In this document: positions 3,242-35,656 of the stretch, piece after piece
Layout of the letters: the number at the start of each line of letters is the position of its first letter
Numbering within the stretch: the first letter of the stretch is position 1
NCBI GenBank assembly: GCA_031290885.1
Contig: JAISLQ010000006.1
Coordinates: forward strand, 1-39,638
From: Acidaminococcales bacterium
Lineage (GTDB): Bacteria; Bacillota; Negativicutes; Acidaminococcales; JAISLQ01
DNA length: 39,638 nt
Direction: 5' to 3'
The notes under the pieces: generated by a model
Seen by the model: only the letters and a program-made list of their open reading frames with translations
Database searches by the model: none
What the model was told of the DNA's origin: nothing
Translations under genes and position numbers: made by a program

Positions 3242-6200
3242 TTACCAGGCACTATCATAGCACATTCCGGGAATGTTTTCATCTATGCCTTTTACGCGGA
3301 CGCGCTCGCCCAATGTTACCAATTCCCGCCCGCGCTGCGCCGCGCGCTCGTCCAACCGTCCGGGCGGCAGCCGCCAGCCCCAGTTGCCCAAGGCGACGCC
3401 CGGCGTGTTCATCCGGGCGCTGCCGGGAAGCGCCAGCAAGTCCTGCAAGGGCGCAATGACCCAGATATGATCGGATGTATAGACAAATTTCAAAAATTGG
3501 TCGGCCGTTTCTTCCTTCGGAAGCATGGCGGGAATGCCCGCCAGTTCCGCCATGCGGACAAAGGCCGGATCGCTGCGGTTGTTTTCCGCCCAGCCGAGGA
3601 GCGTGTCATTGTCATGGGTCCCGGTATAGAGTATTTTGGTTATGTCGCTTGAAACGCCAAATTGCAGGACGTCCGTGCCGGGCAAGGCAAAGCGGTCGCG
3701 CAGCCGGTGCACGGAGGGGGTTATGTCGCCTAAGTCTTCCACGATAAAAGGCAGGCCGCCGAAGTGTTTTTGCAAAGAGAGCAGAAAATCTTCCCCCGGT
3801 CCGGCGCGCCATTGCCCCGGCGCGGCGGTCGCGCTCCCGCGCGGTACGCGCCAATAGCTGTCCAGCGCCCGGAAATGGTCGAGGCGCAGAAGGTTGCAGG
3901 CTTTCAGGCCATGTTCCAAGCGTTTTTTCCACCAGCCATAACCATCTCCCTTTAAAGCCGCCCAGTTATAAAGCGGATTGCCCCAAAGCTGGCCGGTTTC
4001 GGAAAAATAATCCGGCGGCACGCCGGCAACCGCCGCCGGCGCGCCGTCCTCCTCCAGTTCAAAGAACTGCCGGTTGCTCCACACGTCGGCGCTCTCGCCC
4101 GAAAGGTAGATAGGAATGTCGCCGATGACAATAAGGCCTTTTTGATTGGCTTTTTCCTTTAAGAGCGCCCATTGCCGCCAAAATTCGTATTGCAAAAACA
4201 ACTGGTAGCCTATTTCGCCCGCCAGCCGCTCGCCGAAAGCCGCCAGTTCGTCCGGGTCGCGCCGGAAGAGTTTTTGCGGCCAGCCGTTCCAGTGCGCGCC
4301 GCCGAAATTACCTTGCAAAGCCTTGTACAAAGCGTAATCGTCCGCCCAGAAAGCGTTTTCCCGATGAAAGCGCTCAAACTCCGCCCCCGGCGCAAACTGT
4401 TTGTACGCCCGGCGGAAGATTTTTTCTTTGCGCTCTTTTACCTGCGAAAAATCCACCCGATCGGTTTCTGACGCCCCGGCCTTGGCGGCGGCAATGTCCT
4501 CTTTGGCGATATAGCCTTCCGCCAGCAGCAGCTCGGGAGAAATCAAAAGCGTATTGCCGGCGAAAGCGGAATCGCCGGCATAAGGCGAACCGGCATAGTC
4601 AATGGTGTTCAGCGGCAGCAGCTGCCAAATCTGGTGTCCGGAGGAAACGGCAAAATCAATAAATTCATAAGCGCCCGGGCCGAAATCCCCTATGCCGAAA
4701 TCGGAAGGAAGGCTTGACGGGTGCAGCAGCAGCCCCGCTTTTCGCGTCCGGTCAGGGTAAATCACCCCGCCGCGCAGGACGCGCCCCATCCCACCGTCGA
4801 CCGGCATGGAGACGCGCCCGGCGCGCGGGGAAAACACTTCGCCGCTCAATACGTCCACAAGGGCGCTGTCGCCGTCCATGCTGAAGGTCTTGCGCTGCCG
4901 GCCGCGGTTTAAAACGACGGTCGCTTCTTCCGCCGCCAGCAACCGTTTATAAGAGAGTATGTCAGGTTCCGTTTGCAGCGGCAGCCAGGCGCCGCGCCGC
5001 AATGCCGGGTACCTGCGCCGCAGCCGGGACAGCCGCCAGTAATATTTGTAAACATCCGGGTCTTCTTTCCCCCACGGATAGGTGGCGCGGTTGAAGGGAT
5101 CGCTAAACCCTTCCGCCCCCGCCTCGTCGCCGTAATAAACGGATGGCAGGCCGCAAAAGGTCATCTGCCAGACGACGGCCAGCCACAAAAGGCGCAGAGC
5201 GTCGCAGCGCTCCCGGCCGGAGAGATAAAATCCGCGTTTTTGCGTGTCGGTAAAGTTGTCGCCGGGAACGCCGGAGAGTTCGGTGAAAATGCGCGCGGTG
5301 TCATGCGTGCCCAGAAGGTTCATCAAAAGGCCAAAATTTTCCGCGGGGTAATTTTCGTAAAGGCTGTAAAGGCGCGCCATAACTTCCCGGGAGCTCCGGC
5401 GCGCCAGAAGAAAGTCAAGCACGCAGTCGCGGAAAGGATAGTTCATCACCGAGTCAAGCTGGTTGCCCAAAAAATAACAGCGCAATTCGTTGTAGGCGAC
5501 CTTGCGGGAGGCGTCTTCCCATACTTCGCCCAAGAGGAAACATTCCGGATCCTCAAGTTTTATGCGCCATCTTAACAACTTGATGAACTCCGTAGGCAAT
5601 TCGTCCGCCACGTCAAGGCGCCAGCCGCTTGCCCCGGCTTGCAGCCAGCGGCAGGCAACGCTCCTTTTTGCTTCAACTATGTAATAAAGGTAATCAGGGT
5701 TGAGCTCGTCGACGTTGGGCAGGTTGCCGATGCCCCACCAGCTTTCATATTCATGGGGATAATTCTTAAAACGGTACCAACTGTAAAAAGGGGAATCTTT
5801 TGATTGCCATGCCCCGACGCTTTTGAAGGTGCCTTCCTTGTTGAAGTACCGGCTGTCGCTTCCCGTGTGGCTGAACACGCCGTCCAGGATTACCCTGATC
5901 CCGCGCTCCTTCGCTTCGTGGCACAATCTTTTAAAAGCGTCCAGATCGCCTAAAACCGGATCGACCTTTTCATAGTCGCCCGTATCGAAACGATGGTTGC
6001 TGACCGAAAGAAAAATAGGGTTAAGATAAATGAGCGTTACGCCGAAATCTTCCAAGTAATCAAGTTTGGCGGTTATGCCGTCAAGGTTGCCGCCGAAAAA
6101 ATCATAGGCCATTATTTCGCCGGTTGCGCGGTCGCGCGCGTACAGCGGACGCCTGTGCCAGTCGTCGTGGATAAGCGAATCGGGCTTTTTGGCCAAAGGC

Positions 6201-6643
6201 GCGGGAAAAGGGTTGAAAAAACGATCGGGGAATATCTGGTAAATCATCCCGCCGTAAAGCCAGCCCGGCATTTTTTGGGCGTCATAGACGGTTATTTGGT
6301 AAGAAACCGGATCGCTGTCGTAAATCTTGCCCCGCCCGCCCAATTGTTCGGGGTTGTTGCCGTAATAAAGCGTGCGCCCCGGCAGCTTTACGATGAAATA
6401 ATACCAGGCCAGGCAGGGTTTGTCCGGCAAAGTAATTTCAACTCGCCAAACGCTTTTTTCGGCGGGCGCTTTTTTCCGGGCCATGGGATAAATATACTCG
6501 CCGTCGCGCCAAAGCCTAAGCAGCACTTCCGACGGTTCCTGCCCGACGGTTTCCAGGGCGAGGCGCAAGGCGCCCTTTATAGGGCGCGCGCCGAAAGGAT
6601 CGCGGTAAAGAAGGTTTTGCGAATCGTGCAGAAGTGAAATCAC
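3242..6643 (-). CDS. Fused glycogen debranching GH13 / GH77 4-alpha-glucanotransferase
   Basis: 1133-residue two-enzyme fusion. Residues 1-120 form a beta-rich N-terminal domain like those of cyclomaltodextrinases. Residues about 125-600 are a GH13 alpha-glucosidase/debranching barrel with DGVFSH (254-259), nucleophile D344 in GWRLDVADE, acid E373 in LGEVWED and D448 in GTHDTAR. From about 632 a complete GH77 (MalQ) domain follows: nucleophile D922 in RLDHFRALD, acid E969 in IVEDLGD and D1011 in GTHDNDT. Both active sites look intact, so one polypeptide can trim branches and disproportionate the released maltodextrins. Similar GlgX/MalQ fusions are known from Negativicutes. It starts with GTG at 6643, with TAGGAGA overlapping the glgP stop (11-base gap), so translation is coupled. 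It is the last glycogen gene of the operon. Confidence 0.92.
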   Translation of the reverse strand: MISLLHDSQNLLYRDPFGARPIKGALRLALETVGQEPSEVLLRLWRDGEYIYPMARKKAPAEKSVWRVEITLPDKPCLAWYYFIVKLPGRTLYYGNNPEQLGGRGKIYDSDPVSYQITVYDAQKMPGWLYGGMIYQIFPDRFFNPFPAPLAKKPDSLIHDDWHRRPLYARDRATGEIMAYDFFGGNLDGITAKLDYLEDFGVTLIYLNPIFLSVSNHRFDTGDYEKVDPVLGDLDAFKRLCHEAKERGIRVILDGVFSHTGSDSRYFNKEGTFKSVGAWQSKDSPFYSWYRFKNYPHEYESWWGIGNLPNVDELNPDYLYYIVEAKRSVACRWLQAGASGWRLDVADELPTEFIKLLRWRIKLEDPECFLLGEVWEDASRKVAYNELRCYFLGNQLDSVMNYPFRDCVLDFLLARRSSREVMARLYSLYENYPAENFGLLMNLLGTHDTARIFTELSGVPGDNFTDTQKRGFYLSGRERCDALRLLWLAVVWQMTFCGLPSVYYGDEAGAEGFSDPFNRATYPWGKEDPDVYKYYWRLSRLRRRYPALRRGAWLPLQTEPDILSYKRLLAAEEATVVLNRGRQRKTFSMDGDSALVDVLSGEVFSPRAGRVSMPVDGGMGRVLRGGVIYPDRTRKAGLLLHPSSLPSDFGIGDFGPGAYEFIDFAVSSGHQIWQLLPLNTIDYAGSPYAGDSAFAGNTLLISPELLLAEGYIAKEDIAAAKAGASETDRVDFSQVKERKEKIFRRAYKQFAPGAEFERFHRENAFWADDYALYKALQGNFGGAHWNGWPQKLFRRDPDELAAFGERLAGEIGYQLFLQYEFWRQWALLKEKANQKGLIVIGDIPIYLSGESADVWSNRQFFELEEDGAPAAVAGVPPDYFSETGQLWGNPLYNWAALKGDGYGWWKKRLEHGLKACNLLRLDHFRALDSYWRVPRGSATAAPGQWRAGPGEDFLLSLQKHFGGLPFIVEDLGDITPSVHRLRDRFALPGTDVLQFGVSSDITKILYTGTHDNDTLLGWAENNRSDPAFVRMAELAGIPAMLPKEETADQFLKFVYTSDHIWVIAPLQDLLALPGSARMNTPGVALGNWGWRLPPGRLDERAAQRGRELVTLGERVRVKGIDENIPGMCYDSAW

Positions 6644-6654
6644 CTGATACTCTC

Positions 6655-9102
6655 CTATTTATCGATGCGCGTTATGCTTTGGGCGCGCCATATATCGCGG
6701 GCGTATTCCTGGACGGTGCGGTCGGAGGAGAAAAAGCCGGACTTGGCGATGTTTACCGTTGACATTTCCAGCCATTTCGGGCGGTCCTGATAAAGCTCGC
6801 CGACTTTTATCTGCGCCTGGCGGTAGGACTCAAAATCTTTCATTACGTAAAATTCGTCATTGCCGGCATAAATATAGTTTTTAATCGACATGAGGCTTTG
6901 CTGATCGATCGGCAAGGCCCCGCCGAACAGTTTGTCCATGGTGTCGGCCAGCCGCGGGTCGTCCGCTATGGTGTTATAGGCGGAATAAGTATTGTTTTGG
7001 TTAAGTTCCAACACCTCGTCCGCCCGGAGGCCGAACAGCACGAAATTGTCTTCACCTACTTTCTCCCTTATCTCGACGTTGGCGCCGTCGAGAGTGCCGA
7101 TGGTTACGGCGCCGTTCATCATCATCTTCATGTTGCCAGTGCCGGAGGCTTCTTTGCTGGCGGTGGATATCTGCTCGCTCACTTCCGCCGCCGGCACGAT
7201 TATCTGCGCCAGGCTGACGTTGTAGTTTTCAAGGAATATGACCCGAAGGCGCCTGTCAATGGCCGCGTCATTGTTAATCGTTTCCGCCAGGGTGTTTATC
7301 AGCTTTATGATCGCTTTGGCCAGATAATAACTGGGCGCGGCCTTGCCGGCAAAAATAAAGGTGCGCGGCGGCGCGGGGGGGGCGGCGCCGGCTTTCATCG
7401 CGTTATAGAGCGCGAAAATGTGCAGGGCGTTCAACAGTTGCCTTTTGTAGGCGTGTATGCGTTTTATCTGCACGTCGAAAATTGATTTTGTGTCTACCGG
7501 CACGGCTAATTTGTTCATAATGTATTTAGCCAATATTTCTTTGCGCGCCTGTTTGACTTGCGCGAGTTCTTCCAGGAATTCCTCGTCCTTGGCGTAGCGC
7601 ATCAGGTGAGCCAGATCGTCAGGATGCTTTATCCAGCCGTTGCCGATTCTTCCTGAAATCAGGTCGGTAAGTTCGGGATTGGAGTTGTAAAGCCAACGCC
7701 GGTGGGCAATGCCGTTGGTCTTGTTGTTGAATTTTTGCGGCTCGTATTGATAAAAATTGCGCAAAACATCCTTTTTCAATATTTCGGTATGGATATAAGC
7801 CACGCCGTTCACGCTGTAGCTGCCGAACACGGCCAGGTTGGCCATAAATACTTGCCCGTCATGCACGACCGCCATGGAATTTATTTTGTCCCATTCGCCG
7901 GGATAGGCCGCCTCCAGTTTTATCCTGGCGCGCCGGTCTATTTCCTCTATTATCATGTAAACCCTGGGCATGAGTTCCTTGACTATGTCGACCGGCCATT
8001 TTTCCAGCGCCTCCGGCATAATGGTATGGTTTGTGTATGATACTACCCTGGTAACGATGTCCCAGGCGGCATCCCAGCCCAGGCCTTCCTCGTCCAGCAG
8101 CAGCCGCATCAATTCCGGCACAACCAGCGCCGGGTGGGTATCGTTTATGTGAACGGCTATGTAATTCGGCAGATCTTCCAGCGCCAGCTCGTACTTTTTC
8201 TTGTAGAACCGCAATATGCTTTGGATGCCGGCGGAAACCATGAAATACTGCTGTTTCAAGCGGAAGCGTTTGCCCTGATAGTTGGAATCGTCAGGATACA
8301 GCACCTCGCTCAAAGACTCCACGGCGTATTTGTATTCCACCGCTTTCTTGTATTCCTGCCGGTTGCTCAGCAGTATTTCCTCGGCCGCCGGCATTACCTC
8401 CGCGCTCCAAAGGCGCAGGGTATTGACGATGTTGTTGTCGTAACCGACGATCGGCATGTCATAAGGGACGGCCAGCACCGCCTCATAGTCCGTATGGATG
8501 AATTTGAGGCTGCCGCCTTCCTGCTGCATTTGCACCGCGCCGCCGAAACGCACTTCCATCGCCTTGTCGCGTTTCGGCCATTGCCAGGCGCTGTAGTTTG
8601 ATATCCAGCGGTCGGGGAATTCAATTTGATTGCCGTCGACGATTTTCTGCTGGAACAGGCCGTATTTGTAGCTTATGCCGCAACCGTGCCCGGGGATGGC
8701 GGTTGACGCCAAAGAATCAAGAAGGCAGGAGGCCAAGCGGCCAAGGCCGCCGCTGCCCAAAGCGACGTCTTTTTCCTGCGCTTCCAAATCGTCAAGGCTT
8801 ATGCCCAGTTCGGCCAAGCCCCTTTTTACGGGATCCTTGATCTCCAGGTTGGACAAATAATTGTCCAACAATCGCCCGGGCAGATATTCTATGCAAAAAT
8901 AATATACTTGCTTTACTTTCCTTGCCTGATATTCCGCGTTGGTTTTTACCCAGTTGCTCGCTATTTCCTCGCGCAAAGTTTCTACCAACGCTTCGTACTG
9001 CTGATCAAGGGACCCTTCGCTGATCGGCTTGCCGTGCAATGTCTGAAAACAGGTGGCGTATTTTTCCATAAACCTCGTTTTAAATTTCTCTTCTGTCAGC
9101 AT
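6655..9102 (-). CDS. glgP: Glycogen/maltodextrin phosphorylase
   Basis: 815-residue GT35 phosphorylase that releases glucose-1-phosphate from alpha-1,4-glucan ends. The pyridoxal-phosphate lysine is K659 in GTGNMKMMMNGAVTIGTLDG, and the N-terminal YYFCIEYLPGR and GSGGLGRLASC blocks are conserved. The reading frame opens earlier, but the ATG at 9102 has GGGGAG five bases upstream, inside the last codons of glgA, and lies 2 bases past the glgA stop, so I use that start. Length and ends are normal for bacterial GlgP. Its position directly before the debranching fusion makes sense: phosphorylase stalls near branch points, which the next protein removes. Confidence 0.96.
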   Translation of the reverse strand: MLTEEKFKTRFMEKYATCFQTLHGKPISEGSLDQQYEALVETLREEIASNWVKTNAEYQARKVKQVYYFCIEYLPGRLLDNYLSNLEIKDPVKRGLAELGISLDDLEAQEKDVALGSGGLGRLASCLLDSLASTAIPGHGCGISYKYGLFQQKIVDGNQIEFPDRWISNYSAWQWPKRDKAMEVRFGGAVQMQQEGGSLKFIHTDYEAVLAVPYDMPIVGYDNNIVNTLRLWSAEVMPAAEEILLSNRQEYKKAVEYKYAVESLSEVLYPDDSNYQGKRFRLKQQYFMVSAGIQSILRFYKKKYELALEDLPNYIAVHINDTHPALVVPELMRLLLDEEGLGWDAAWDIVTRVVSYTNHTIMPEALEKWPVDIVKELMPRVYMIIEEIDRRARIKLEAAYPGEWDKINSMAVVHDGQVFMANLAVFGSYSVNGVAYIHTEILKKDVLRNFYQYEPQKFNNKTNGIAHRRWLYNSNPELTDLISGRIGNGWIKHPDDLAHLMRYAKDEEFLEELAQVKQARKEILAKYIMNKLAVPVDTKSIFDVQIKRIHAYKRQLLNALHIFALYNAMKAGAAPPAPPRTFIFAGKAAPSYYLAKAIIKLINTLAETINNDAAIDRRLRVIFLENYNVSLAQIIVPAAEVSEQISTASKEASGTGNMKMMMNGAVTIGTLDGANVEIREKVGEDNFVLFGLRADEVLELNQNNTYSAYNTIADDPRLADTMDKLFGGALPIDQQSLMSIKNYIYAGNDEFYVMKDFESYRQAQIKVGELYQDRPKWLEMSTVNIAKSGFFSSDRTVQEYARDIWRAQSITRIDK

Positions 9103-25864: not shown

Positions 25865-27136
25865 TCATTTGGCGCCAGGGAAAGCCTGCTTGATAGGCAG
25901 CGTAAGGGCGAACAAAGCGGAAGCCACGTAAGACCAGAGGGCAAAGGAGAAGGACGCGTCATAAGAACCCGTCACATCGAGGAAATATCCGCCCAAAAAA
26001 CTTCCCGTCGCCGGGCCGATGCCCATAACGACCAATGTGCCCAGGCCCCATATTTTGCCGAAATTTTTGCCGCCGTAAATAGTTCCCACGTATCCGGCGA
26101 TGCCGCCCGGCTCAATTGCCCAGTAGATAGCAAAGAATACGCAGGCTATAATGCCGTAGGCCATTGACACGCCGCTCAAGCGCAGGATCAAAACACCGAT
26201 TATGCCGCATATGGGAGCGATAATGACCATAAGTTTCCTTGCTTTGCCTTCGGAACCGAGCTTTCCGACCAGGCTATCGGCGACCACGCCGGTGCCGGGC
26301 ATTGTAACGAGGCCGCACACGCCGATGGCGATGTACAGAGTCCCCGCTGTCGCGGTGGAAAATCCGTGCGTGGTAATCCAATAGTTGACCAATTGCGTCC
26401 AGATCAAAAATTCAGCCATCATGCTGCCCAGGAAGGCAATGACGGCGCCCCAGATGGGCCAAGTTTTAAAAGCGGTCTTAACGTCCCAGGGGGGAGGGGC
26501 CGCCGCGCCGGCGACCGGCGCAACCAGGCCGTAAGGCTCATAGCCGTAGTGATCGGGGTTCTTTCGCGCAAAAAAAGCCGCCATGGCCAACAATACAAAT
26601 ACGATGGCGGCCAAGATTCTCATGGCTTCGCGCCAGTCCATGGTAAGCAGCAGCTGATTGAGCACCAGGCTAAGCAGAAGCTGCGCCATGGGCGCGCCCA
26701 TGAAGGCCATGCCCCAGCTTTTGCCATAGTAACGGCCAATGAACCATTTGCGCACGGAAGCGGTGGACGATACCCACAGCATGCCTGTCCCTATTCCGGC
26801 AAACAACGAATAGGTGAGCAGATAGGTAGCGTAGCTGTCGGCAAAGCTGCACAGAAAAAATCCGAGCGCGGCAAAAACGGAACCAATGGCAAAAGCTTGC
26901 CTGGTGCCCCATTTGTCCACAATCATTCCGCTGAAGTATGCGGTAACGCCGTAAATAACCATCATCAAAGAATAGCCCATGGAAGTCTGTCCAACAGTCC
27001 AGCCCATGCCGCTTGCCAACGGGCGCAGGAGCAAAGAGAAGGAAGACCGATATCCGAACAGGCAGAACACTGCCAACCAAGCGGCAAATACGACCATGTT
27101 GCCACTTGATTTTTTGTGCGCTTCACTGTTAATCAT
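25865..27136 (-). CDS. MFS transporter of the oxalate/formate antiporter (OFA) type
   Basis: 423-residue, 12-helix major facilitator. The loop between helices 2 and 3 reads GMIVDKWGTRQAF, the usual MFS A-motif position. The overall pattern (GYRSSFSLLLRPLASGMGW, SSTASVRKWFIGRYYGKSWG, YGGKNFGKIWGLGTLVVMGIGP) is that of OFA-family organic-acid carriers. The ATG at 27136 is chosen because GGAGGGA lies 8 bases upstream. It follows the GRE gene in the same direction after a 376-base gap and ends at a terminator, so it probably moves the substrate or product of the GRE, most likely a carboxylate. A truncated relative lies at 31398-31568. Confidence 0.85.
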   Translation of the reverse strand: MINSEAHKKSSGNMVVFAAWLAVFCLFGYRSSFSLLLRPLASGMGWTVGQTSMGYSLMMVIYGVTAYFSGMIVDKWGTRQAFAIGSVFAALGFFLCSFADSYATYLLTYSLFAGIGTGMLWVSSTASVRKWFIGRYYGKSWGMAFMGAPMAQLLLSLVLNQLLLTMDWREAMRILAAIVFVLLAMAAFFARKNPDHYGYEPYGLVAPVAGAAAPPPWDVKTAFKTWPIWGAVIAFLGSMMAEFLIWTQLVNYWITTHGFSTATAGTLYIAIGVCGLVTMPGTGVVADSLVGKLGSEGKARKLMVIIAPICGIIGVLILRLSGVSMAYGIIACVFFAIYWAIEPGGIAGYVGTIYGGKNFGKIWGLGTLVVMGIGPATGSFLGGYFLDVTGSYDASFSFALWSYVASALFALTLPIKQAFPGAK

Positions 27137-27142
27137 TAGCAA

Positions 27143-27512: not shown

Positions 27513-29951
27513 TTAAATGGCCCATTCGTTTTCGGAACGGTCGATCAGCTCGTTCTGGATCGTTTCGCTAAGATCGGTCCAGTAAGCGCTGTAACCGGCA
27601 ACGCGCACGATGAGATCCTTATGTTTCTCCGGCTCCTTCTTGGCGGCGCGCAATTGCTCGGTGCTGATGACGTTGAATTGGATGTGCTTGCCCGAGCCTT
27701 CCCCAAAGTAGGTCCGAATCAGAGCCGCCAAGTTGTCGCGGCCTTTCTTGTTGGCAAGGGAGGACGGCGTGAAGCGCATGTTGAACAGCGCGCCGTAAAG
27801 GTCGGTTTGGTCTACGCGGTTGGCCGAATTGATGACGGCGGTCGGGCCGTTGACGTCGGTCCCCTGCGTCGGGGAAACGGCGCCGTCGGCCATGGAGACC
27901 CAAGCCTTGCGGCCGCAGGGCATGGCGCCCAACTTGGCCCCGGTCCCGCCATGAAACCCTATGGAGTGCGGCGAAACTTCGTAATGGCTGCCGTAGGTAG
28001 TGGGCTTGGAATGCCAGATTTCCCTCAAGGTCGAGTATACTTCATCCGCCAGCGCATCAACTTCTTCTATGTCATTGCCGAACTTCGGAAGGGCCAAAAT
28101 CTTGGCGTGCAGTTCTTCATAGCCCACCCAGTCCGCCGCCATGGCATCAAGCAGAGTTTGTTTGCTGCAGATCGGATTGTCGACGAAGATATGGTATTTG
28201 AGGACATACAGGGCATTGGCGACATCCTGGACGCCGACAGGCACAATGTACATGCTGTTGTCTTCATGTTCCGCGCCGCCTACGCTGGCTACCTTGCCCT
28301 TCTTGATGCAGGAGTGGACAAAAGCCGACATCATGATGTCCGGGAAGGACTCGGTATGCTGAATCTTGCAGCGGCGGCCGCTGGTGGTTCCGACATCCGC
28401 CCAATAGTCCAGCTGTTTGCAATAGGCTTGGAAGAATTCTTCGTAAGTCTGCATCTTGGTGAATTCGCCGGTGGCCGGGCCTAGTTGCTCGTTATATTTG
28501 CGATCCCAGCCGTTTAAGAGAGCCATTTCCAGCATCTTGGCCTTGTTCATGACCAAAGGCCAAATGGGGCCGGTCTTTCCGGGCACCGTGTGCAGCGTGC
28601 AGCCGCCGAAGGCGTAGCTGCGCGCTTCTTCCAAGGTGTAGCCGCGCGCGAGCAAGTAATTGGTGGTCGACAAGTCGTTGAAGAAAGCGGGAAAGCCCAT
28701 GCCCATGGCAACGACTTCCAGGCAGCGATCCATGAATTTTTTGTTGATGCGGGGATGCCAGCGCACGGAAAGCGTAGGATGCGTGGTTTTGACGCGCACG
28801 GCGGCCTCCAGCCAGAGGAAGGACAGCTCGTTTACGGCGTCCCTGCCGGTCTTGGGGTCTACCCCTGCGAGCACCGTATTGTGAAAGTGCGACTCGGAAC
28901 TTAGGTTCGGGGTCATGACATCCGGCCAGAACTGGCGCTTGCCCATGGTCTTGACGCGGAAGCACTCCAGCAGCTGAAGGGCGTACTCCTGGTCAATGTA
29001 GCCTCTCTCGATGTCTTTCTTGAACGTCGGATACAGGAATTGGTCGACGCGGCCAAAACCCATGCCATAGGTGCGGGTATCGTAAAATATCATCAGCACG
29101 CCGAACTGGAAGGACTGCAGAGCTTCCTGGAAGGTTTCCGCCGGATATTCCGGAACGCGCCGGCAAACGCGGGCGATTTCTTCAAGTTCAGCCTTGCGGG
29201 TCGGGTCTTTCTCAACAGCGGCCTTTTCAGATGCTAAGTCGGCGTAACGGTGCGCGTAGTCTATGCCGCCTTGCAGCATGCATTTCAAGCCTTTCCAGAA
29301 CTGCTCCTTATAAAAGTCCCCAAGGGAGGTAATTTGCAGTTTTTCCAGCTGCTCGTCGATTTCGGCGATCAGGCCGCGGGCGCCCTTGTTCATGAGGGTG
29401 AAACCAATGTCCGGACAATTCCAAGCTTTTTCCGCGAACATTTCCGAAACGGTATTGATGACCCAAGCGCCGGCCTCGCCGATTTTATGTTCGTATTCGG
29501 CTTCTTCGGGGCCTTGATACTTCTGCCACATTTCCTTGCCGCCGGTGTTGCGGAAATATTCGCAGATATCCAGGGCCTGCTGTGCGTGCGCCTCGTTGTC
29601 GAAACCGAAGAATTTGCCTTTGTTGCCTTCCCAACCGTACTTTTGAATGTACTCTTCCATCCACAAAGCCGCCAGATCCGGGAACCACTCAGGGCCCATC
29701 GGCCGCGCGCTGTAGTCGCCGACCAAAAGCTGGTCGTCATCGATGTAAATCGGGATCTCCCGCAGAATTTTCTGTACGGTCAGGCCGCGCTTGTGAAAGA
29801 AAGAATAGCCGTCAAATTCTTTATAGCCGTCTACCAACAGCTGGGCGCGCGCCATGGACATATTCTGTGTGTAGCGCAAGGGGTTCAGCCGGTCCCAGAT
29901 AACATTTCCCCTGCTCTTTCCTTCGTACTTGTTGTACTTTACTTTCGCCAT
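27513..29951 (-). CDS. Glycyl radical enzyme of unassigned specificity
   Basis: 812 residues with both GRE hallmarks. The C-terminal glycyl loop is RVAGYSAYW with radical G786. The thiyl-radical cysteine is C451 in FGGCTLHTVPG. Upstream blocks (LSVRWHPRIN, GFPAFFND) and downstream SPTQGTDVNGPTA fit the large PFL-like family including arylacetate decarboxylases and fumarate-adding enzymes. In the well-known dehydratases, choline and isethionate lyases and hydroxyphenylacetate decarboxylase the cysteine is followed by Cys-X-Glu; here it is Cys-Thr-Leu with His at +3. The expected base is missing, so none of those activities should be assumed. Start ATG at 29951 has AGGAG at 9 bases; an ATG at 29960 abuts it and is rejected. 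Its activase is directly upstream. Confidence 0.93.
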   Translation of the reverse strand: MAKVKYNKYEGKSRGNVIWDRLNPLRYTQNMSMARAQLLVDGYKEFDGYSFFHKRGLTVQKILREIPIYIDDDQLLVGDYSARPMGPEWFPDLAALWMEEYIQKYGWEGNKGKFFGFDNEAHAQQALDICEYFRNTGGKEMWQKYQGPEEAEYEHKIGEAGAWVINTVSEMFAEKAWNCPDIGFTLMNKGARGLIAEIDEQLEKLQITSLGDFYKEQFWKGLKCMLQGGIDYAHRYADLASEKAAVEKDPTRKAELEEIARVCRRVPEYPAETFQEALQSFQFGVLMIFYDTRTYGMGFGRVDQFLYPTFKKDIERGYIDQEYALQLLECFRVKTMGKRQFWPDVMTPNLSSESHFHNTVLAGVDPKTGRDAVNELSFLWLEAAVRVKTTHPTLSVRWHPRINKKFMDRCLEVVAMGMGFPAFFNDLSTTNYLLARGYTLEEARSYAFGGCTLHTVPGKTGPIWPLVMNKAKMLEMALLNGWDRKYNEQLGPATGEFTKMQTYEEFFQAYCKQLDYWADVGTTSGRRCKIQHTESFPDIMMSAFVHSCIKKGKVASVGGAEHEDNSMYIVPVGVQDVANALYVLKYHIFVDNPICSKQTLLDAMAADWVGYEELHAKILALPKFGNDIEEVDALADEVYSTLREIWHSKPTTYGSHYEVSPHSIGFHGGTGAKLGAMPCGRKAWVSMADGAVSPTQGTDVNGPTAVINSANRVDQTDLYGALFNMRFTPSSLANKKGRDNLAALIRTYFGEGSGKHIQFNVISTEQLRAAKKEPEKHKDLIVRVAGYSAYWTDLSETIQNELIDRSENEWAI

Positions 29952-30070
29952 TAATACCATCTCCTTATTTCTTTGCTCTTGAAGCTTCGGGGCGACCATC
30001 TTTACTTTCTGTAATCATTGATTCCCCCTCTCTTAAAATAGTATTTAAAGCGCGATCTCATAGGAGCAAC

Positions 30071-30982
30071 TTAGCTCGCCCTGATAATTTCCTCAAGCTT
30101 TGCCAGATATTCATCTGACTGGCGCTTGTACGCTGGATGTTCTCCTTTGAAATCCATGCGCCCATACTTTTCCTCGCCCAGGTTGTTATAAGGAAGAAGC
30201 TCTATATGATCAGCAGGGCAAAGGCCCAGTTCGTTTCGCACGAAACTGGCAATGGCGCTGACGCTTTCATAGCTATCGTTGTAACCGGGAATAAGCGGCG
30301 TCCTGAACAATATTTCTTTCTTCTCCGCGACCAGGCGCCTGGCGTTTTCCAAAACATGCTCATTGGGCGCGCCAACGCCTTCTTTGTGCTTTTCGCTGTC
30401 CATGTGCTTGAGGTCATAGAGAATATAGTCGCAATGGTCGGCAATCTTCTTAATGGTCGGCCAAGGATAAGCCCCCGCCATTTCAACGCAAGTATGCACG
30501 CCTTCCTCCTGCGCGCGTTTTAAAAGCGCGGCCGCAAAATCCGCCTGCAGTTCGATGGCCCCGCCCGAAATCGTCATGCCGCCGCCGGAATTTAAATAAA
30601 TCGCATAATCTTTAAGGACCGTTTCCATAACCTCGCCGACCGTCATCAGCTTGCCCTGCACGTTGCGAAGGCCGGACAGGCAGGCCGAAGTGCAAACCCC
30701 GCAGGCCTTGCAGCGCGAACGGTTGACAAGCATTCTCCCATCGATGATATTGCTGGCCCTTTGCGGGCAGGATTGAACGCAGCGGCCGCACAAAACGCAT
30801 TGCTGCTTCCTGACCATAAGGACAGGCATCATGTCCTGGGACTCGGGGTTCTGGCACCAAAAGCAACGCAGGTGGCATCCCTTCAAAAAGACCGTCGTGC
30901 GAATCCCGGGCCCGTCATGCGTGGAAAAACGTTGGATATTGAATACATAGCCGCTTAGCCCCTTGACAATCTCCATACTCAT
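30071..30982 (-). CDS. Glycyl radical enzyme activating enzyme (radical SAM)
   Basis: 303 residues. The radical-SAM motif CxxxCxxC is C36/C40/C43 in GCHLRCFWC. It is followed by two inserted ferredoxin-type clusters (C62/C65/C68/C72 and C91/C94/C97/C101), the form found in activases of non-PFL glycyl radical enzymes. GGGMTISGG binds SAM and DLKHMD follows. It should abstract hydrogen from G786 of the neighbouring GRE under anaerobic conditions. It precedes the GRE gene by about 119 bases in the same direction. AGGGGTG lies before three close ATGs (30985, 30982, 30976); I use the middle one. Confidence 0.94.
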   Translation of the reverse strand: MSMEIVKGLSGYVFNIQRFSTHDGPGIRTTVFLKGCHLRCFWCQNPESQDMMPVLMVRKQQCVLCGRCVQSCPQRASNIIDGRMLVNRSRCKACGVCTSACLSGLRNVQGKLMTVGEVMETVLKDYAIYLNSGGGMTISGGAIELQADFAAALLKRAQEEGVHTCVEMAGAYPWPTIKKIADHCDYILYDLKHMDSEKHKEGVGAPNEHVLENARRLVAEKKEILFRTPLIPGYNDSYESVSAIASFVRNELGLCPADHIELLPYNNLGEEKYGRMDFKGEHPAYKRQSDEYLAKLEEIIRAS

Positions 30983-30991
30983 CATCAACAC

Positions 30992-31397
30992 CCCTAACTA
31001 TTTGTCGCTTTTCTTTTTAGAAAGCCCCCCGTTATATCAAGCCGCGCGCCTTCCGGCGTCCAAAAGCTTCGCGCATAACGGCGGTATATGTCTTTATCCG
31101 GCACAATCCCTTATTTTCTTATGATACCAACAAATCGGCAGCCGATATATCCGTCAAGCGTTTATTGCCGGTCGTATTTGCGGCCGCCAAGGTTGTATGC
31201 CAATACAACCTTGGCGGCCTGTCCAGTTTAAGGGAAGCTACATTGTGGTTACAACGAAACGGCAGAAAGCAAACGCCATCATCGGCAAGCCCCGACTGCC
31301 TTGCCCTTGGCCGGGCGATGCCGCCGCAGCGGGTTGCCGCTCGCCCTCAGTTTCCGCGGCCGCAGTCAAGCAAAGGCCACCGAGTCAATATATGCGC
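30992..31397. other. Gene-free leader and spacer upstream of the GRE activase
   Basis: Holds no gene I can support. Structures visible: CCGTTAT/ATAACGG arms (31029-31035 and 31075-31081) that could fold the activase 5' leader, a 13-base symmetrical ATCGGC-A-GCCGAT at 31134-31146 that could be an operator, and a large perfect inverted repeat at 31182-31219. The part from 31220 to 31397 looks like decayed coding DNA behind the MFS remnant. Confidence 0.4.
31182..31219. repeat. Perfect 17-bp inverted repeat with 4-base loop
   Basis: Arms 31182-31198 and 31203-31219 are exact reverse complements, loop GCCA. There is no T run on either side, so it is not a standard Rho-independent terminator. It lies between the MFS remnant and the GRE activase leader. 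It could be an ancient terminator that lost its T tract, a transcript-stabilising hairpin, or a protein-binding site. Confidence 0.7.
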
Positions 31398-31568
31398 TCA
31401 GACGAAACAAAACGCCGGGACATGAGGCCCGACGTTGACCTTAACCCAAGCGCCCATGAACGTCCCGGCGAAAGGACCGGTTCCCATGACAACGAGCGTG
31501 CGCAGCCCCCAAATATTCCCGAAAGAATGCCCTCCGAAAAATGGCGCCGCATGGTCCGCGCCGCCGCG
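31398..31568 (-). pseudogene. Remnant of an OFA-type MFS transporter gene
   Basis: On the minus strand, starting a base or two after the ECF gene's stop, a 56-codon stretch reads as the region before the last transmembrane helices of an OFA transporter: PFFGGHSFGNIWGL, RTLVVMGTGPFAGTFMGA. Hand alignment to the intact MFS protein encoded at 25865-27136 gives 20 identities in 39 positions, including GG, FG, IWGL, TLVVMG and GP. No start codon, upstream three quarters or full C-terminus exists, and it ends at a TGA at 31398-31400. It is a different paralogue, not a recent copy. Confidence 0.75.
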
Positions 31569-31569
31569 C

Positions 31570-32097
31570 CTATCCGCGAAAGAGCGCGGACAACGGCGTC
31601 CTGTTCAGCAACATAGCCAGCGGGATTCCAAGCGCATAGGCCGGAATCAACTGCGCCAAGTTTCCCGGCACCGAGGTAACCGGAGTCGCCCAATTGCCGT
31701 ACAGCAACGCTTCGTAGAGGTAGTACCCCGCGACCATCAGCGCGCCGCCCAGCGTAACGGCGAGCAAGTTAAGCGCGAAGTTCCCGCCGCCGCGCCGTGC
31801 CGCAATTTTGCCGATTGTAAAGCCCATAAGTCCGCGAATTACAACAGTTCCGGGCGCCCAAGCCGCCCAACCGCCCAGTACGTCGAACAGGCCCATTCCC
31901 ACCGCGCCGGCAATCGCCCCGCTGCGAGCGCCGAACACTATCGCCGCGATTACGAGCGGTACATTGCCCATATGAATCAGTCCGCCGTTAACGGAAACAG
32001 GCAGACGTATATTTATGAACATTGTCCCCGCGAGAGTCAGCGCGATGAGCATCGCGTCGGCGCAAAGCCCGGCAACGGCTGAGTGATTCCTGTCCAA
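31570..32097 (-). CDS. ECF-type transporter S component (substrate-binding membrane protein)
   Basis: 175 residues. After about 15 residues come several hydrophobic helices with the pattern TLAGTMFINIRLPVSVNGGLIHMGNVPLVIAAIVFG, then AGAVGMGLFDVLGGWAAWAP and a YGNWATPVTSVPGN block near the end, as in the riboflavin-type ECF S-component family (PF07155-like). These membrane proteins bind a vitamin or similar compound and need separate EcfA/EcfT proteins, which are not in the window. The start is a TTG at 32097 with GGGAGGGA seven bases upstream; the longer upstream frame lacks such a site. I see no FMN or TPP riboswitch consensus upstream, so the ligand is open. The stop touches an MFS remnant. 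Confidence 0.82.
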   Translation of the reverse strand: MDRNHSAVAGLCADAMLIALTLAGTMFINIRLPVSVNGGLIHMGNVPLVIAAIVFGARSGAIAGAVGMGLFDVLGGWAAWAPGTVVIRGLMGFTIGKIAARRGGGNFALNLLAVTLGGALMVAGYYLYEALLYGNWATPVTSVPGNLAQLIPAYALGIPLAMLLNRTPLSALFRG

Positions 32098-32245
32098 TGG
32101 CGAGTCCCTCCCTCTGTACGCGGCTTCGATTCGCAGCGATATCGCAGCGCTTTTTTCCGCCTGTCGAGTATTTGTTAAGTTCTTTCCCAAATCGGTTGAA
32201 AACTCATCGACTGCGCGGTACCCGCGTTGTTTTTAGCGGGCGTTT

Positions 32246-32848
32246 TCAATAGGTCGCGACAAAAAGCTCAAAATAGCCCTGCGGGTGGGCGCAGGCCGGG
32301 CAGGACTCCGGCGCGGATTTGCCGCGGTGGATGTAGCCGCAGTTGTTGCATTTCCATTCCACTGTTTCGTCCCTTTTGAATACAATTGCTTTTTCTATGT
32401 TTTCGGCAAGTTTGCGGTAACGCTTTTCGTGGCGTTCTTCCACTTCGGATATTTCCGTGAAGGTAACGGCGATGTCGGGGAAGCCTTCTTCCTTGGCGGT
32501 TTTGGCAAAGGCGGCGTAAAGTTCCGTCCATTCCTCGTGTTCCCCGTCGGCCGCCGCTTTCAGGTTGGATAAAGTGTCCAAAGCGGAATAAGCCAAGGGA
32601 TAAGCGGCGCTTATGTCTACCATGCGCGGGTTTTCGCCCTTGGTGTACTCCAGCGCCCATTTCATGAATTTCTTGGCATGTTCTTTCTCGTTGCCGGACG
32701 TTTCCTCAAAAATGTTGGCGATTTGCACGTACCCGGCTTTGCGCGCCACCGAAGAATAGTAAGCGTACCGCGTGCTGGCCTGACATTCGCCGGCAAACGC
32801 TTTCATGAGGTTTTCCAGAGTTTTTGTCCCTACCAAACTTTTGCCCAT
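32246..32848 (-). CDS. Rubrerythrin
   Basis: 200 residues. The four-helix diiron domain has glutamates and histidine in the usual places ([33 protein letters not shown]). The C-terminal rubredoxin-like site is CNNCGY plus [11 protein letters not shown]. It reduces hydrogen peroxide in the cytoplasm of anaerobes. The ATG at 32848 follows AGGGGGAA; the open frame upstream has no supporting ribosome binding site. It lies 108 bases after cstA in the same direction, probably with its own promoter (TATATT near 32880). Confidence 0.95.
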
Positions 32849-32956
32849 AAAAATTCCCCCTGTCGATTTGGTTTTAAAATATATCGCGCCCGCCCCGGCG
32901 ATTTGATGGCGCATTGCCGCAAGAGCTGCCGCAATTTCCCCTTGGCGTCTATCCTA

Positions 32957-34654
32957 TCACTGCGCGCCGCCTTTTGCGCCGCGCTGCCCGAACAACGCTT
33001 TTACCCCCTGCGCCGCGATGCACACGCCCAGCAAAAGCACCAGCACGGCCATTACCAACTGCAAGCCATCGTTGAACATGTTTTTGCTGAGGCCGCCGGC
33101 CAACCCGGACGACAACTGATATACTTTGATGCAGAGCGCGGAGAAGGTAACCGCGATCATGAAGAAAATGGGTATGACCATCATAAAATGGGCGCGCCTC
33201 GTCCTTTTGAGAAACACGGCGCAGGCGATAAGCGACAAGGCCGACAATAGCTGGTTGGAAGAGCCAAACAGCGGCCAGATGGCCGAATAGCCCGCCTTGG
33301 ACAATAGATAAGCGACCAGGAGTGTCAAAATGGTCGCGACGTACTTGTCCATGAAGAATTTATGCGCCGCCCCCGGCTGTTCATCCGCCGACGCCTGAAA
33401 AAATTCCTGGAAGGACAGGCGCCCCACGCGGGCGACCGAGTCCAGCGAGGTCATGGCGAAAGCGGAAACCGAAAGATTTATCAACGTAAAAACGATGTCG
33501 GACGGAAGCCCCAGCGTCGTGAGGAAATTGGCGATGCCGCCGGCGAATACCTGCGGCGGCGTTACAAGACCTTGCTTGGCGGCGGCGCCGGCAGCGAAGG
33601 AAGCTACGGCGATCAGGGCGATAACGGCGAGCAGGCTTTCCATCAGCATGGCGCCAAAGGAAATCGGCAGCATGTCATTTTCGCTTTTGATTTGTTTGGA
33701 CGCCGTACCGGAGGATACCAGAGAGTGAAACCCGGAAACCGCCCCGCACGCGATTGTAACGAACATCATGGGAAACAGCGATTGCCCGTCTATGTCAAAC
33801 CCGGTGAAAGCCGGCAGGTTTATGGAAGGGTTTGAGACAAAAACGCCTACTACGGCGGCGGCGATCATGGCCACCAGGAGATAACTGTTCAGATAGTCCC
33901 GGGGCTGCAGCAAGGCCCAGATCGGCACGACCGATGCGACAAAAATATAAGTGAACACAATAATGTGCCAAATGTCTCGCGAGACAAAGATCGGGAAATT
34001 CAGCCCGAAGGCGATCGCCGCGACTAACAATATCAGCGCGGCCGCCGTGTTCAGCCATTTCCCCAGCCGGCCGAAGCGCAAGACAAAACCCAAAACGACC
34101 GCTTCCACGATGAACAACATGGAGGTAGTCGCTACCGCGCCGTTGGCGGGAATTTGCGTACTGGCGCCTTTCGGCGAAACATAAAAGCCGTTGAAGGTAC
34201 CGGCCACCACGTCCGCGAACGCGGCGATCACCAGTATGCAGAAAAGCCAGCAGAAGATAAGAAAAAGTTTTTTGCCCAGGCGGCCGATATATTCTTCAAT
34301 AACATAGCCAATGGTACGGCCTTTGTTGCGCACGGACGCGTACATAGCGGAAAAATCCTGTACCGCGCCAAAAAACACGCCGCCGAGCAAAATCCAGATT
34401 AATACGGGCAGCCAGCCGAAAACCGCGGCCTGTATGGGGCCGTTGATGGGGCCGGCGCCGGCGATGGAGGCGAACTGATGCCCGAATACCACATGCCTGT
34501 CGGCCGGTACGTAGTCCACGCCGTCTTGATATGCATAGGCCGGCGTTTTCGCCGCCGGGTCAATCCCCCATTTGTTGGCGAGCCAGCGGCCGTAAAAAAG
34601 ATACGCCGCCCCCAATACGGCAATTGAAATTGCCATCATCAAAATGCCATTCAT
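32957..34654 (-). CDS. cstA: CstA-family carbon starvation protein / pyruvate or peptide transporter
   Basis: 565-residue membrane protein with about 15-16 helices. The family blocks ADRHVVFGHQFASIAGAGPINGP near the N-terminus and SSNQLLSALSLIACAVFL near the C-terminus are present. Relatives (CstA, BtsT) import pyruvate or peptides when carbon is short. AGGAGG lies seven bases before the ATG. The gene follows the HxlR regulator by 60 bases in the same direction, so that regulator may control it. Confidence 0.92.
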   Translation of the reverse strand: MNGILMMAISIAVLGAAYLFYGRWLANKWGIDPAAKTPAYAYQDGVDYVPADRHVVFGHQFASIAGAGPINGPIQAAVFGWLPVLIWILLGGVFFGAVQDFSAMYASVRNKGRTIGYVIEEYIGRLGKKLFLIFCWLFCILVIAAFADVVAGTFNGFYVSPKGASTQIPANGAVATTSMLFIVEAVVLGFVLRFGRLGKWLNTAAALILLVAAIAFGLNFPIFVSRDIWHIIVFTYIFVASVVPIWALLQPRDYLNSYLLVAMIAAAVVGVFVSNPSINLPAFTGFDIDGQSLFPMMFVTIACGAVSGFHSLVSSGTASKQIKSENDMLPISFGAMLMESLLAVIALIAVASFAAGAAAKQGLVTPPQVFAGGIANFLTTLGLPSDIVFTLINLSVSAFAMTSLDSVARVGRLSFQEFFQASADEQPGAAHKFFMDKYVATILTLLVAYLLSKAGYSAIWPLFGSSNQLLSALSLIACAVFLKRTRRAHFMMVIPIFFMIAVTFSALCIKVYQLSSGLAGGLSKNMFNDGLQLVMAVLVLLLGVCIAAQGVKALFGQRGAKGGAQ

Positions 34655-34714
34655 GCTTTATCCTCCTGAAAATATAGTCAACAATCAGTTGCGCCCGCCG
34701 CCTTCGCGGCGCGG

Positions 34715-35158
34715 TTAATTTTCTCTGCGGCAAGTTTCGCAAGCATTGGAACCGGCAGTATTTTTATAAAGTTGGGCAAAGCCCCATTTGGCCAAAAGCT
34801 CCAAAGCCGGCAACAAACTCTCGCCGTCCGCGGTCAGGGCGTACTCCACCCGGGGCGGTATTTGGTTGTACTGCTTGCGAAGGACTATGCCGAAATTTTC
34901 CAATTCTTTCAGCGACTGCGACAGCATCATATTGGTTATGCCCGGTATGTTCCGTTTGATCGCGCTGTAGCGGGCAGGCGTCCTTGAGGACAAAAAGCAT
35001 ATTATCGGCAATTTCCATTTGCCGCCGATTATGCTCAAAGCATGGCGCAAAGGGCAAAGCGCGAACTCCCCGCCATTTCCGTCCAGGCCGACCACCTCCC
35101 GCTGCGTGCTTGGCTCGCCGCCATCTTTGCTAAAGTATTGTTTAGCATACCTTGTCAT
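34715..35158 (-). CDS. HxlR-family winged-helix transcriptional regulator
   Basis: 147 residues with the HxlR pattern CPLRHALSIIGGKWKLPIICFLSS, starting at C35, followed by the recognition helix ITNMMLSQSLKELENFGIV and the wing VEYALTADGESLLP. The cysteine just before the helix is often redox- or aldehyde-sensing in this family, and a CxxC (ACETC) sits near the C-terminus. It is divergent from a small flavin-binding protein, the usual arrangement for HxlR regulators and their target. The ATG at 35158 has a poor ribosome binding site; a later GTG inside REVVG is an alternative start. Confidence 0.88.
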   Translation of the reverse strand: MTRYAKQYFSKDGGEPSTQREVVGLDGNGGEFALCPLRHALSIIGGKWKLPIICFLSSRTPARYSAIKRNIPGITNMMLSQSLKELENFGIVLRKQYNQIPPRVEYALTADGESLLPALELLAKWGFAQLYKNTAGSNACETCRREN

Positions 35159-35189
35159 TAAATACTGCGTACTTGCAAAATATTTTCTT

Positions 35190-35207
35190 TATAATACAAT
35201 TATACCA
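35190..35207. promoter_or_regulatory. Divergent promoter region for HxlR and the PNPOx-like gene
   Basis: A perfect TATAAT on the plus strand (35190-35195) points to the PNPOx-like gene, and TGGTATAAT on the minus strand (complement of 35199-35207) points to the HxlR gene. The -10 boxes nearly touch, so one bound regulator could control both directions. The -35 boxes are weak. Confidence 0.55.
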
Positions 35208-35252
35208 TAAAAGGGCTTGGCAAAACAAAACAAAACAAAAGAGGTGGCAAAA

Positions 35253-35645
35253 ATGCAGGAAGTATTGAAATTTTTGGCTGAAAGCAAGGTTTTCTTTTTG
35301 GCGACAGCGGAAGGGAAGCAACCGAGGGTACGTCCCTTGGGATTTTTTATGGAGTATGGGGGCAAACTTTGCTTTTGCACCAGCAACCAAAAAGATATGT
35401 ACAAACAGATGAAAGACAGCCCGTTAGTGGAGATTTGCGCGACTGTCGGCAGGGACGTCCTGCGCGTCACGGGGAAAGCGGTTTTCGTTACCAGCGCCGC
35501 GAGCAAACAGAAGGCGCTGGAAGTCATGCCGGCGTTAAAAGCCAAATATGCCGTGGACGACAAGATATTTGAAATCTTCGCCGTAGAGGATGCCACGGCA
35601 ACTACGCTTGGAGCTGACGGAAGCAAAAAAACGCGGCAAATTTGA
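35253..35645 (+). CDS. Pyridoxamine 5'-phosphate oxidase-like flavin-binding protein
   Basis: 130 residues with the split-barrel FMN-binding pattern: FLAESKVFFLATAEGKQPRVRPLGFFMEY, KLCFCTSNQKDMYKQMKDSP and VLRVTGKAVFV. Short proteins of this type bind FMN, F420 or heme and often reduce small molecules; the substrate is unknown. The start is set at the ATG at 35253, which has AGAGGTGG upstream, not at the in-frame TTG at 35217. The gene is divergent from the HxlR regulator, which probably controls it, and is followed by a strong terminator. Confidence 0.87.
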   Translation: MQEVLKFLAESKVFFLATAEGKQPRVRPLGFFMEYGGKLCFCTSNQKDMYKQMKDSPLVEICATVGRDVLRVTGKAVFVTSAASKQKALEVMPALKAKYAVDDKIFEIFAVEDATATTLGADGSKKTRQI

Positions 35646-35656
35646 AAAAACCGCCA

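Follow-up and report, generated by a model that had tools for sequence, protein, structure and literature searches.

Introduction

What is the short stretch of DNA that separates an ECF transporter gene from a decarboxylase operon in a draft genome (85 contigs) of a gut-type Acidaminococcales bacterium, and how did it come to lie there? The window, which is the whole stretch of 39,638 nucleotides that was analyzed (GCA_031290885.1, contig JAISLQ010000006.1), carries on its minus strand, in this order, the gene for an ECF transporter S component (32190–31570), the stretch in question (31565 to about 31348), a leader with an inverted repeat, the gene of an activase, that of the enzyme and that of an intact carrier. 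A preliminary description, made from the letters of the sequence, had interpreted 31398–31568 as the rest of a second OFA transporter. Here we ask whether this is correct, from which carrier lineage the relic descends and what brought it into contact with the ECF gene.

Results and Discussion

The operon next to the relic encodes an arylacetate decarboxylase-type glycyl radical enzyme (27513–29999, minus strand). With phmmer it gave 1249 bits to PDB 7e7l, which is entitled "hydroxyphenylacetic acid decarboxylase", while the next match, a glycerol dehydratase, reached 425 bits; the enzyme stays below every NCBIfam cut-off listed. We take 7e7l to be the arylacetate decarboxylase (AAD) of Olsenella scatoligenes. 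The active-site stretch of the window enzyme reads GGCTLHT, as does the frame in the congener G001, versus GGCLE in HPAD-type enzymes. The motif GGC(T/V)LHT is kept in all three aligned orthologues (L081, L082 and G119), and GGCVLHQ in 7e7l is in line with this. In PMC13285125 and PMC9248008, AAD is treated as a distinct decarboxylase type. The glycyl radical activating enzyme is encoded at 30071–30991 (minus strand; TIGR02494, 329 bits, cut-off 174). A further glycyl radical enzyme of this genome, partial and encoded at the margin of a contig (G000:C61:8-1351), is 36% identical to the window enzyme. Two distant genomes have a DUF4037 gene in the vicinity of their decarboxylase locus (L044 (G001:C260), 7253–8179; L082, 1806–2750). 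In L082 the activase gene is moreover immediately preceded by a DUF4125 gene.

Downstream of the enzyme lies the intact OFA/MFS carrier gene (25865–27142, minus strand; MFS_1). The protein obtained 131 bits with NF049980 (cut-off 320) and 57 bits with TIGR00890 (cut-off 375); judged from its sequence it is related to the SfMCT and OFA families and is not a member by the cut-off rule. Related carriers adjoin enzymes that score above the 4-hydroxyphenylacetate decarboxylase cut-off in L099, L102, L108 and L111; the carriers that accompany indoleacetate decarboxylase in L112 and L113 are more distant. PMC6181972 hypothesises that the MFS carriers of such loci import arylacetates. Given this hypothesis and the gene context, the intact carrier of the window presumably does the same.

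When we searched the window with this carrier using tblastn, we obtained a match at 31404–31565 (minus strand) with 24 of 54 residues identical (E 6.9e-8), and a search of the whole genome returned the same site (E 8.2e-9). A profile made from the C-terminal part of 14 intact carriers was then run over the 1181 six-frame stop-to-stop segments of the window. It picked out 31401–31604 with E 1.2e-15 and the intact carrier with 4e-33; the next best segment had E 2. Translated searching by both methods hence gives significant carrier matches and confirms that 31401–31565 (minus strand), by its predicted translation, codes for the C-terminal portion of an OFA/MFS carrier: 55 in-frame codons correspond to residues 347–401 of the intact one. 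The existence of a decayed second OFA-type carrier, as the preliminary description had it, is thereby borne out, and its count by eye of 20 identities in 39 compares well with the 18–21 of 39 that we find over 39-column stretches. No phage record matched the relic peptide.

The homology probably extends past the in-frame stop to 31348 in another frame. This tail (31348–31404, minus strand) would represent the final carrier codons and contains one further stop; 7 of 18 residues are identical to the intact window carrier, and with a profile that left out the IAD-type carriers L112 and L113 its score ranked 10 among 79,164 translated windows of equal length, and its position is exactly the one expected. 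The fragment first drawn at 31398–31568 is consequently real, with an end that was set too early.

What is left of the gene is the last ~18% (~75 codons), the first ~80% being gone. The relic frame is stop-free for 68 codons and has an in-frame stop at 31398–31400. Its first ATG, GTG or TTG gives 29 amino acids, so that no carrier can be made from it. With truncation, one frameshift, stops and no usable start, the stretch qualifies as a pseudogene, and a full-length open frame for twelve helices, as expected of an OFA/MFS carrier, is not present. Since only residues 347–401 are in frame, plus the probable shifted tail, we are dealing with a pseudogene fragment and not with a carrier. One might quote the 68 stop-free codons in favor of a functional short membrane protein. 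We find this hardly credible, because a product of 29 residues is all that the first start leaves, the 68-residue piece alone has no Pfam match and the homology continues out of frame.

The carriers most similar to the relic belong to the loci L082 (Peptococcaceae bacterium UBA6096, genome G380) and L108 (genome G399), and we call them A-type. The relic is identical to the L082 carrier in 32 of 54 positions (59%), to that of L108 in 31 (57%) and to its own intact neighbor in 24 (44%); apart from L082 and L108, the 12 carriers in the alignment share 10–24 of the 54. Nine of the 54 columns show a relic residue common to L082 and L108 only; in three it agrees with its own carrier and not with them. 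In 9685 of 10,000 column resamplings the nearest carrier was L082 or L108. The tree unites relic, L082 and L108 in one clade with a support of 100/100 and rejects a clade of the relic with its own carrier (AU p 0.011), values that refer to a relic row filling 16% of the columns on a long branch (2.47) flagged by the tree's own checks. Three entries of the first alignment, L078/G093 with a frame that looks broken and the distant carriers L058 and L060, were left out of profile and tree. From the clade, the AU value and the nine diagnostic residues we conclude that the relic, as far as its sequence tells, is of the A-type lineage and a paralogue distinct from the intact carrier, in agreement with the earlier assignment.

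G380 and G399 were the only genomes in which we saw an intact A-type carrier. Among 200 relatives, the relic peptide found matches in 7 genomes including its own, with at most 44% identity outside itself. The 380 genomes of the class contain relatives of the L082 carrier in 7, again including the own genome, and none exceeds 53%; no A-type carrier was found in them. A match of the relic in L081 (18 residues, E 0.006) was discarded as chance; that stretch reads as a threonyl-tRNA synthetase gene.

Did the locus once have one carrier on each side of the activase–enzyme pair, the upstream one being destroyed by the arrival of the ECF gene? The relic shares its strand with the activase gene and immediately precedes it. 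A carrier gene takes this position in 6 of 11 further loci whose contig contains all three genes (L102, L109–L113). These six loci, however, have HPAD- or IAD-like enzymes. For loci with the enzyme type of the window, a scan of the genome contigs gave three (G001's own contig, L081 and L082); the 380 genomes of the class added one besides G001 (G119), and among 398 genomes of the phylum of G380 the type occurs only in the genome of L082 itself. None of these four loci, for which 4.2–8.6 kb were covered, shows a carrier gene ahead of that of the activase. In L082 and G119 the carrier gene follows that of the enzyme, and in L081 the enzyme has no carrier next to it; the G001 contig ends inside the enzyme gene, and the last 28 carrier codons open another contig. 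Nor did any locus surveyed have two flanking carriers. The comparison with related genomes consequently lends no support to the proposed pair of carriers around the GRE genes, and we consider such a history unlikely.

A different origin is suggested by the gene order in the A-type loci. A-type carriers accompany two different enzyme types (L082 and L108), and the window locus combines an enzyme of the L082 type (70% identical to that of L082) with another carrier. The operons of L082 and L108 both close with the A-type carrier gene, so that the loss of a neighboring operon would be expected to leave a carrier tail in front of the next one. Most likely, the stub would thus mark the 3′ terminus of a decarboxylase operon that has since been lost, or it would have come as a stub together with the ECF gene.

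The ECF gene is intact (31570–32190, minus strand; riboflavin-type family, Pfam PF07155, E 4.2e-32). Its stop codon occupies 31570–31572 and the carrier homology begins at 31565. The close contact with the relic is therefore real, with a gap of about 4 bases where within two had been given. In the one congener on which the breakpoint rests, G001 (75% complete, in many contigs), the DNA identity ends at 31214 on one side and at 32244 on the other. The block with activase and enzyme (88% and 93–94% identical to the window) has other genes upstream there than in the window; the block with rubrerythrin and cstA, which matches 32244–35650, is on a different contig, where its neighbors appear from their ORFs to be rpsU and yqeY. 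Because the identity stops at both flanks and the neighbors are different, the ECF gene and the relic occupy a segment of ~1 kb (31215–32243) that is absent from both matching G001 sites. The relic peptide has no match in G001 or G002, which contain the closest ECF relatives, and so the stretch does not belong to a conserved ECF-associated region.

These data fit a recombination that joined ECF DNA to a carrier stub, and they agree with an insertion of the ECF gene, a rearrangement of blocks or an import of the stub alike. The preliminary description had the ECF-linked recombination destroy the carrier: the recombination is consistent with the segment missing from both G001 sites, and the arrival of the ECF gene as the destroyer is one of several courses that fit equally well. 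We found no mobile element at the junction, and 31100–32300 is without flanking direct repeats beyond short GC-rich ones. Foreign composition was dropped as an argument; of 2911 windows, 6.8% have a GC content at least as high as that of the segment (0.60).

It is conceivable that a ready-made stub was imported with the ECF gene on one segment and never was a working carrier in this lineage. Both are missing together from the two G001 sites, and the ECF relative of G001, on a third contig, is 60% identical, compared with 83–91% DNA identity in the shared rubrerythrin and cstA blocks, so that the window ECF gene was probably not inherited in step with its neighbors. In the 380 class genomes we found no A-type carrier, the best other carrier having 53% identity. 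Still, we did not find a donor with an ECF gene beside an A-type carrier, the GC content is not clearly foreign, and a chance import would not predict that the relic adjoins exactly the kind of locus to which such carriers belong. Overall, we see the import as possible and somewhat doubtful. Could the join be an artefact of the draft assembly? The number of contigs and the end of the G001 synteny at the inverted repeat discussed below invite the thought. It seems very improbable to us, as a 125-kb contig carries the ECF gene, the stub and their flanks with ordinary composition, and even then the stub would remain a truncated gene that contains a frameshift.

Between the relic and the activase we noted a perfect 17-bp inverted repeat with a 4-base loop (31182–31219) on the boundary of the block that G001 also has. 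Its RNA fold has −33.2 kcal/mol (z −6.74); no T-run is present, the repeat is imperfect in G001, and a second copy was not found in the genome. The leader upstream of the activase (30992–31214, minus strand) is conserved in G001, with a second copy there (71% identity over 223 bases). As a ~240-bp element it is found twice in L044 (G001:C260), at 6036–6273 and 8372–8607, once before a DUF6198 membrane-protein gene, and this doubling is possibly a shared regulatory site or the mark of a duplication. Rfam returned nothing in the whole window at gathering thresholds and nothing in 30900–31600 with E up to 1, hence the leader is no known riboswitch.

Inside the relic itself, a pattern scan detected a terminator-like hairpin (31411–31436, minus strand) with 9 paired bases followed by a T-rich stretch. 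It folds with −14.6 kcal/mol (z −2.98); the intact carrier gene of L082 has no such hairpin, and its corresponding region gives z −0.27. The decayed tail might thus have been kept as a terminator that keeps the ECF transcript apart from the decarboxylase operon. If true, a fragment of a transporter would be reused to terminate transcription right after the ECF gene. Since the same scan gives 5 terminator-like sites in 1.4 kb versus 2.0 expected, we regard the idea as a weak lead and as very unlikely to be correct.

Conclusion

In summary, the stretch is best explained as the dead tail of an A-type OFA/MFS carrier gene that sits without function at its join with an ECF gene, a reading in which we have high confidence. 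Illegitimate recombination would have fused the ECF gene, which kept its own stop, to the tail of the carrier gene, and the resulting stub would be untranslated and without transport function. The stretch is a real but ordinary gene remnant of a common sort. Its value is that a locus of the p-cresol- or skatole-forming type preserves a vestige of a second carrier lineage. The relic thereby records how such loci trade carriers, and it makes the exchange of carriers between loci testable. In the literature we found nothing on a decarboxylase with a transporter and a pseudogene.

Among the carriers compared, the OFA carrier of L082 is the closest counterpart with its 59% identity over 54 residues and its place in the same clade. 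It differs from the relic in that it is intact, with 441 amino acids, and lies downstream of the enzyme, not upstream of the activase. The IAD and HPAD clusters of Olsenella scatoligenes, as presented in PMC6181972, are similar in that a carrier gene adjoins those of an arylacetate decarboxylase of the glycyl radical kind and of the corresponding activase; the likeness of their carriers to the relic, which is a truncated and frameshifted tail, is one of gene context. Finally, the likeness to the AAD of Olsenella scatoligenes (Lu et al. 2021, as cited in PMC13285125 and PMC9248008) concerns the enzyme of the window and not the relic.
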